Origin: an uncultured bacterium
GTDB lineage: Bacteria; Omnitrophota; Gorgyraeia; Ghiorseimicrobiales; Ghiorseimicrobiaceae
Assembly (NCBI GenBank): GCA_913009335.1
Contig: CAJVXN010000010.1
Span: 1-56,336 of the forward strand
Length of the DNA: 56,336 bases
Direction of reading: 5' to 3'
Shown here: positions 47,071 to 49,266 of the stretch, in pieces
How positions within the stretch are numbered: the stretch's first letter is position 1
How the letters are laid out: each line of letters begins with the position of its first letter
Translations under genes and position numbers: made by a program
The notes under the pieces: generated by a model
What the model saw: only the letters and a program-made list of their open reading frames with translations
The model's database searches: none
Told to the model about the DNA's origin: nothing

Positions 47071-49266
47071 ATGAATGCATTTTTAAGCGCGTTGGAAAAA
47101 TATGACTTAGATTGCAATAGCATTTTAAGAAGAGAGGGCCTGACTACTTTGCAGGTTAATATGGGAAATCTATGTAACCAACAGTGTCTGCATTGCCATA
47201 TAGATGCCTCGCCTAAGGGTGATAAAATAATGCCAAAAAAAGTCGTGGATAATATCTTAGGATTTCTTGCTAAATATAAAATGCAGACTCTTGATATAAC
47301 GGGAGGCGCGCCAGAACTTAATCCAAATTTTGATTATTTCGTTAAATCGGCACGCCCCCTGGTAGATGAGATTATCATACGTTCCAACCTGACTGTCTTA
47401 TTTGAAAAGGATAAAGAATACCTGCCTAAATTTTTTAAAGAAAATAGAGTGCATCTTATATGTTCTTTGCCTTGCTATTTAAAGGAGAACATAGAATATC
47501 AGAGAGGCAGGGGTGTATTTGAAAAAAGCATTACCGCTTTACGCCTTTTAAACAAAGTTGGTTTCTCTATGGATGCGGGATTGGATTTAGATTTGGTTTA
47601 TAATCCTAAGGGCGCATATCTTCCCCCTGATCAGGAAAAGCTTCAGAAGGATTACAAACGCGTATTAAAAGAGCAGTATAAAATAGATTTTAACCGTCTT
47701 ATTACAATAACTAATGTTCCCATAAAAAGATTTAGAGAGCATTTGGATTTAACTGGAGAATACGAAAAATATTTTAATCTCCTAAAGGATAATTTTAATC
47801 CACTTATCTTAAGTGATCTTATGTGCCGTACTTTTTTAAGCGTTGGTTTTGATGGAAAAATTTATGACTGTGATTTTAATCAAGCCTTGGGTTTTGCCTT
47901 AAAAGACGCGCAAAAGAATTTTTTAACAGTTGATAATCTTGATCCGGAAGATTTAGAGGGCAGAGAAATTATAATAGATGAACATTGCCTATCTTGCACC
48001 GCAGGCAGTGGCTCAAGCTGTCAGGGAGCTTTAGGCTCTAATGATAATAAGACCGTTTCATCTATAAGCTGCGCTGTGGATACTGGTGAAAATAAGAAAG
48101 AAGAAGTTAACCCCGTTAGAGATAAGTCGCCATCAGGCGACTGTCTATTGCCAACGGAACCATCGGATAAAAGTTTAGCTTCATTAGGTACGGATTTAGC
48201 TACTAAAGATAGAGAGAAAGCTATCTCTAACGGGGTTAAGTCTTATTATGGTAAGATTTTAAAAAGCACGAACGATTTAAAGACTAATGCCTGTTGCGCA
48301 AGCGAATCTTTACCTTTAGCACATAGGGATATATTAAAAAAAATTGAACCGGAGATATTGAATAAGTTTTATGGTTGCGGCTCACCCATCCCCCCATTAC
48401 TTGCGGGTAAGACAATACTAGACTTAGGCTGCGGTACGGGAAGAGACGTATATCTTGCTTCATTTTTAGCAGGGAAAATGGGCAAGGCAATCGGTATTGA
48501 TATGACTGATGAACAACTCAAAATCGCCCGAAAATATCAAGATATACAGATGCGAAAGTTCGGACTAGATAAATCTAATATCGAGTTTAAAAAAGGCTAT
48601 ATTGAGGATTTAAAAGCTTTAGGGATTAAGGATGATTCTATCGATGTGGTAATATCTAATTGTGTAATAAATCTTTCACCTGATAAGAAGAGTGTCTTTC
48701 GCGAAATATTTCGAGTTTTAAAATCCGGAGGCGAGCTTTATTTTTCTGATGTATTCGCGTCCAGCAGGGTCCCTGATGAATTAAGGAATGACAAGATAGT
48801 TTACGGAGAGTGCCTGGGCGGAGCTTTATATATTGAAGATTTTAGAAGAATTCTGTATTCTATTGGTTGTCCTGATTATCGCGTAGTTTCAAAAAGCAAG
48901 CTTACGATCTCGAATTCTCAAATTAAGAAAAAAATAGGCTCAATAGATTTTTATTCAATGACAATACGCGCTTTTAAGTTGGCAGACCTGGAAGATGTTT
49001 GTGAAGATTACGGGCAGATTGCGATATATAAAGGAACAATACCGCATCATCCGCATAAATTCGAATTTGATGACCATCATGTTTTTATCAGCAAAAAACC
49101 CATGCTTGTCTGTGGGAATACGGCTTTGATGCTTACGAATTCACGCTTTAGTGATCATTTTAGCGTGGCAGGTGATAAGGTTAATCATTACGGTATTTTT
49201 CAATGTGGGCCTGCCCCAGCTAAGCTTGATAATGATGGTTCTTCGTCCGGAGGATATTGTTGCTAA
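47071..49266 (+). CDS. Fusion of arsenosugar biosynthesis radical SAM protein (ArsS-like) with ArsM-like methyltransferase
   Basis: Radical SAM motif CNQQCLHC; DEHCLSCTAGSGSSCQGAL; SAM-MT motif TILDLGCGTGRDVYL and ArsM-like C-terminus (HPHKFEFDDHHVFISKKPMLVCGNTALML). Confidence 0.85.
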   Translation: MNAFLSALEKYDLDCNSILRREGLTTLQVNMGNLCNQQCLHCHIDASPKGDKIMPKKVVDNILGFLAKYKMQTLDITGGAPELNPNFDYFVKSARPLVDEIIIRSNLTVLFEKDKEYLPKFFKENRVHLICSLPCYLKENIEYQRGRGVFEKSITALRLLNKVGFSMDAGLDLDLVYNPKGAYLPPDQEKLQKDYKRVLKEQYKIDFNRLITITNVPIKRFREHLDLTGEYEKYFNLLKDNFNPLILSDLMCRTFLSVGFDGKIYDCDFNQALGFALKDAQKNFLTVDNLDPEDLEGREIIIDEHCLSCTAGSGSSCQGALGSNDNKTVSSISCAVDTGENKKEEVNPVRDKSPSGDCLLPTEPSDKSLASLGTDLATKDREKAISNGVKSYYGKILKSTNDLKTNACCASESLPLAHRDILKKIEPEILNKFYGCGSPIPPLLAGKTILDLGCGTGRDVYLASFLAGKMGKAIGIDMTDEQLKIARKYQDIQMRKFGLDKSNIEFKKGYIEDLKALGIKDDSIDVVISNCVINLSPDKKSVFREIFRVLKSGGELYFSDVFASSRVPDELRNDKIVYGECLGGALYIEDFRRILYSIGCPDYRVVSKSKLTISNSQIKKKIGSIDFYSMTIRAFKLADLEDVCEDYGQIAIYKGTIPHHPHKFEFDDHHVFISKKPMLVCGNTALMLTNSRFSDHFSVAGDKVNHYGIFQCGPAPAKLDNDGSSSGGYCC
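48107..48239 (+). repeat. CCCCGTTAGAGAT palindromic element, copy 2, in frame inside arsS-arsM
   Basis: Perfect 18-bp inverted termini TTAACCCCGTTAGAGATA/TATCTCTAACGGGGTTAA; internal AGTCGCCatcaGGCGACT. Confidence 0.9.

Follow-up and report, generated by a model that had tools for sequence, protein, structure and literature searches.

A MITE-like Element in Frame within an ArsS-ArsM Fusion of an Omnitrophota Genome and Its Likely GIY-YIG Nuclease-Encoding Parent

The ArsS-ArsM Fusion and the Inserted Element

The window considered here, a stretch of 56,336 nucleotides of an Omnitrophota genome, contains a gene for a 729-residue ArsS-ArsM fusion (Table 1). Residues 17-319 match TIGR04167 with 406 bits (cut-off 300), and residues 379-620 match the arsenite methyltransferase model NF008823 with 195 bits, under its cut-off of 263; further ArsS-ArsM profile matches were obtained for PF12345, PF04055, and PF13847. 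The linker between the two domains holds a perfect 18-bp inverted repeat (48107-48124 / 48222-48239), which the original prediction had described as the termini of a palindromic element. These termini are real, and they can be resolved into a 14-bp terminal inverted repeat (TIR), CCCCGTTAGAGATA, and a 4-bp direct duplication, TTAA, that is palindromic by chance. The element is translated as 43 residues, N345 to V387, and its predicted in-frame reading, VNPVRDKSPSGDC...EKAISNGVK, is correct. The frame of the fusion is kept because 125 + 4 = 129 bp, which corresponds to 43 codons.

The two further copies predicted in the window were confirmed, with the bounds given in Table 1. The TIR of the second copy provides the last codons and the stop (..HEPR*) of an upstream YvcK-like gene, and the third copy lies directly after an FdhD-like gene. 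An exact empty site for the second copy was not found in the relatives G001-G003, in which the gene order differs.

Table 1. Coordinates of the features described in the text; positions refer to the window, except for the last row.
Feature	Position	Strand	Remarks
ArsS-ArsM fusion ORF	47077..49266	+	729 aa from ATG at 47077; longest ORF from GTG at 47050
ArsS-ArsM domain order			radical SAM ArsS, linker with element, arsenite methyltransferase-like domain
Left target-site duplication	48107..48110	.	TTAA
MITE-like element	48111..48235	+	125 bp; hairpin end at left; translated in frame
Left TIR	48111..48124	+	CCCCGTTAGAGATA
Subterminal hairpin	48125..48142	+	AGTCGCC-ATCA-GGCGACT, from element base 15
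Right TIR	48222..48235	-	
Right target-site duplication	48236..48239	.	TTAA
Second copy	13471..13594	+	124 bp; duplication TGAA at 13467-13470 and 13595-13598
Third copy, short two-hairpin form	52232..52296	+	65 bp; duplication TTTA at 52228-52231 and 52297-52300
Nuclease element in this genome	L037:1481-1759		

Relation of the Element to the Fusion

It had also been proposed that the element bridged two genes into one. This idea, like that of a selected functional linker, is favored by the position of the element, in frame between the two domains, and by the relatives G003 and G025, in which arsS and arsM are split genes. Comparison with orthologous loci contradicts it, as G001 (670 aa) and G039 (669 aa) have the fusion with a short linker that lacks the element, so that the fusion is older than the insertion. 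Element-free fusions were found both in a sister genus and in a different family. When the element and one TTAA are taken out, the linker reads ...KKEEVKSYYG, to be compared with ...SKIKKYYG and ...REMVSDYYG in G001 and G039, respectively. Moreover, a search for the peptide signature in other proteins, as was originally suggested, located NPVR..ISNGV in frame in HemB and in a UvrD-like helicase, where the elements are read in the same frame as in ArsS-ArsM; this recurrence also argues against a dedicated linker. In HemB (L065), a 65-bp copy contributes exactly 23 residues, NPVRDKTPKVSVDCLRQPISNGV, and orthologues without element are present in five relatives (G001, G002, G003, G025, and G039). 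In the helicase (L059), the in-frame element accounts for 22 residues. Selection for open frames was considered as well, but their frequency is near chance in the copies of this genome (0.35 vs 0.29); in elements elsewhere it is mildly raised (0.61 vs 0.42). We thus regard the bridge or the selected linker as hardly credible. The gene was already fused when the palindrome, a small non-autonomous (MITE-like) mobile element, landed in it. A TIR element with target duplications, with a nuclease-encoding relative, was not recognized in the original prediction.

Apart from its in-frame element, the helicase gene (L059:2-1100, C27 of the same genome) contains an apparent intein in which one stretch, KIYYVYLMWRKDLGWRLGVTNDLAVRLK, is GIY-YIG-like but degenerate.

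Copy Number, Target Sites, and Mobility

Pattern searches, from which all the genome-wide counts derive, gave 89 end matches in the 1.88-Mb genome (47 forward, 42 reverse) versus 1 for a reversed control pattern, and about 45 element copies. In the window there are 6 end matches, with 0.12 expected. Most elements of this genome measure either 118-130 bp or 62-65 bp and none has a transposase gene. An exact 4-bp duplication flanks 85 of 174 copies, about half thus lacking a perfect one, whereas shuffling of the flanks gave a mean of 14.6 and a maximum of 26. The target consensus is TRAA, often preceded by G, and neighboring copies have one duplication in common. The orientation of the MITEs to the target is skewed (36 vs 9). 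Within one genome, copies with 95-98% identity are found in unrelated flanks; the near-identical copies of one Elusimicrobia bin have no clear duplications. We consider that the mobility of these elements is well supported.

Each long copy has a hairpin, which mostly starts at base 15. The stems comprise 26 different sequences, paired at 5.95 of 6 positions compared to 3.46 with shuffled partners, a contrast partly favored by selection because the copies were chosen for having a stem.

The GIY-YIG Nuclease Element

Longer elements, of 277-284 bp, have identical TIRs and 4-bp duplications, and their sole ORF encodes an 86-residue GIY-YIG nuclease. PF01541 is matched with 62.4 bits, over its cut-off of 22.6; Y3, Y5, Y16, and R26 are invariant and E62 is present in at least 90% of the sequences. 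The structure model has a pLDDT of 90 and the GIY-YIG fold, its best matches among solved structures being UPF0213 BH0048 and Slx1. The intact ORFs are under purifying selection, with a dN/dS of 0.10 for the closest pair and a median of 0.14 across unsaturated pairs, from which it follows that the nuclease has been kept functional. The coding sequence extends into the end of the element: the TIR encodes the C-terminal SLTG, and the duplicated target often provides the stop codon, TAA or TGA. The nuclease elements favor the orientation opposite to that preferred by the MITEs, which supplies this stop codon (12 TAAA/TGAA vs 3 TTTA).

When 285 genomes of the phylum were searched, every best-scoring GIY-YIG match (to about 60% identity) lay between such TIRs, with spans of 276-314 bp and exact duplications in many cases. 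When any TIR sequence was allowed, inverted repeats flanked 33 of 61 GIY-YIG loci versus 5 of 450 control positions. The layout is found in five phylum-level groups, which also include Planctomycetota, Elusimicrobiota, Patescibacteria (Kazan), and Ratteibacteria. Phages, plasmids, and viral contigs yielded no close relative of the nuclease.

The parents of common layout have a subterminal repeat, mostly of 12 bp, which starts at base 15 and encloses a loop of 150 nt (152 in one), and is followed by 74-85 nt up to the other TIR. In the MITEs, the paired segment at base 15 encloses 3-17 nt in most copies and the mid part has about 70-81 nt, close to the 75-82 nt measured in parents. The MITE therefore looks like the parent minus the loop, as the same segment encloses 150 nt in one and 3-17 nt in the other. 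The start of the GIY-YIG coding sequence is still present in two MITEs (44 and 14 bits; none of 2240 shuffles reaches 6), and descent of the middle part from the nuclease ORF is clear in these two copies only, most middles being too diverged for proof. We think that the 277-284-bp element is likely the parent of the MITE. G002 and G003 have many MITE ends (54 and 63), but a GIY-YIG gene bounded by these TIRs is absent from both. This might reflect loss of the nuclease, a gap in incomplete assemblies that hides it, or a different mover of the MITEs.

Insertions at Prepilin Cleavage Sites

Twelve elements are located exactly at a prepilin cleavage site, S(L/V)TG^FTLIE, namely 10 of the 152 elements in the set (including the nuclease element L117:2564-2843) and the nuclease elements L218 and L310. 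The GGN TTT ACN codons at the cleavage site carry the preferred target on the opposite strand. In-frame fusions of nuclease and pilin occur in L218, L246/L117, and L310, with open frames of 222, 245, and 269 residues. The leader with the insertion would presumably be removed by prepilin peptidase, and such insertions would therefore be tolerated, making prepilin leaders a safe harbor for them. The pilin-fused nuclease element L310:1360-1695 itself has a nested in-frame mini-element, PVRND...ISNGA.

Other GIY-YIG Loci and Introns

Several loci with GIY-YIG genes or introns were observed besides these elements. In the window, a group I intron at 8641-8888 (Rfam, 92 bits) apparently splits a tRNA gene near the anticodon, and a small GIY-YIG gene lacking the TIRs is found at 10821-11039, near a tRNA-Leu at 11251. 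Elsewhere in the same genome (L212:1380-1900, C16), two copies of GACCCCATCGTCTAGTATGG, apparently the 5' part of a tRNA in duplicate, enclose a small GIY-YIG gene, an arrangement that may point to a different route of insertion. In a second group (L233, L234, L239, and L254), the GIY-YIG genes have CCCCGTT(C/A)CAAA ends adjoining GGCGTG/CGTGCC, with an apparently fixed CGTG target. Finally, GIY-YIG genes of Patescibacteria and Planctomycetota (L255, L256, L273, and L274) are bounded by other TIRs, which in L273 are a perfect 21-bp repeat, CCCCGCACACAGTTTGCCTAT.

Proposed Mechanism and Alternatives

In our opinion, the explanation with the best prospects, to which we assign as a whole a probability of about 0.68, is a MITE-like insertion into an existing fusion, with a GIY-YIG TIR element as parent and the nuclease as mover of both. 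The MITE would have arisen from the nuclease element of ~280 bp via loss of the 150-nt loop. The GIY-YIG protein may recognize the TIR and the subterminal repeat, perhaps in the form of a hairpin or cruciform; the structure model, with the branched-DNA nuclease Slx1 among its best matches, is in line with such recognition. The protein would then cut the element ends, the duplication would result from a cut with a 4-nt stagger in (G)TRAA targets, and MITEs would be moved in trans. One of them would have entered the linker of the pre-existing ArsS-ArsM fusion at a TTAA site, where the insertion survived because 125 bp and the 4-bp duplication make 43 whole codons with no stop. The nuclease as catalyst of the movement, and every detail of the cuts, are what we infer. 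We know of no GIY-YIG enzyme that catalyzes transposition.

The main rival is a trans-acting DDE transposase, encoded elsewhere or since lost, that moves all these elements, the GIY-YIG ORF being a passenger that gained TIRs. TIRs and a 4-bp duplication are indeed typical of DDE elements, and the MITEs of G002 and G003 without nuclease element point in the same direction. Nevertheless, no element of 0.33-4.5 kb with these TIRs is present in the fetched loci, except for pairs of neighboring short copies. PF01609, a major DDE family and the one searched, is absent in the MITE-bearing relatives G001, G002, G003, and G017, and its single transposase in G000 is without these TIRs. Moreover, the nuclease ORF occupies the entire parent element, down to a C-terminus that is the TIR, and several different TIR sequences bound related GIY-YIG genes, which a recent passenger does not explain. 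We therefore think that a DDE mover is unlikely, if still the most serious competitor.

A homing-like spread, in which the GIY-YIG protein only cuts the target and leaves it to host repair to copy the element into the break, would be in keeping with the known GIY-YIG homing endonucleases and with the closest NCBIfam model of the nuclease, a group I intron endonuclease matched under its cut-off. Homing, however, concerns one allelic site and involves neither TIRs nor duplications, whereas here dozens of sites have only (G)TRAA in common and are accompanied by both; in addition, no group I intron match was found at eight element loci. Such a spread is thus improbable. The strong, covarying hairpins might also suggest a structured RNA, or palindromes of the REP/RAYT type with a Y1 transposase as mover, but the elements have no Rfam match, and perfect TIRs with 4-bp duplications are not made by HUH/Y1 elements; we give this possibility even less credit than homing.

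Relation to Known Systems and Significance

Bacterial MITEs are also short, multi-copy elements with TIRs and target duplication, have no gene of their own, and are tolerated between or within genes. The elements described here differ in that their apparent autonomous partner has a gene for a GIY-YIG nuclease in place of a DDE transposase, and in the covarying subterminal hairpin at a fixed distance from one TIR. The likeness to Rickettsia palindromic elements pointed out in the original prediction stands, as a repeated palindrome is tolerated in frame within a protein. Those elements of Rickettsia and Wolbachia are palindromes of about 100-150 bp in frame in conserved proteins, as in ArsS-ArsM, HemB, and the UvrD-like helicase; in this comparison of features, the differences are that the bacteria are unrelated and that here there are clear TIRs, 4-bp duplications, and a candidate mobilizing gene. 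The UPF0213 group (PDB 1zg2) and Slx1 share the GIY-YIG domain and fold, but in the present case a TIR element contains the gene and nothing else. The GIY-YIG homing endonucleases of group I introns and inteins are likewise nuclease domains tied to mobile DNA, although here there is no intron at the elements, and TIRs, duplications, and dispersed targets replace the single homing site.

An open-access literature search yielded no earlier description of GIY-YIG nucleases within bacterial TIR elements; a match to CCCCGTTAGA in a Porphyromonas paper was discarded as an unrelated oligonucleotide. The unusually small transposon-like element of ~280 bp with a GIY-YIG gene may be a type of mobile element not described before. 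We are evenly divided on the broader proposal that the 86-residue nuclease is the transposase of a TIR transposon that would be among the smallest autonomous ones conceivable, spread over several candidate phyla, with its TIR used as coding sequence, its stop taken from the target, prepilin sites as safe landing places, and the nuclease serving at times as a removable pilin leader.

To our knowledge, transposases use only DDE, HUH, tyrosine or serine recombinase, Cas1, or reverse transcriptase chemistry, and a GIY-YIG mover, if true, would add one more. It would also provide a concrete mover for in-frame palindromes; we know of no clear origin for those of Rickettsia. The survey of the GIY-YIG superfamily published in 2006 left open whether more of its members are molecular parasites (PMC1564403), a question that would then find an answer. 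Finally, such a mover would account for the abundance of small GIY-YIG genes in these little-known phyla.
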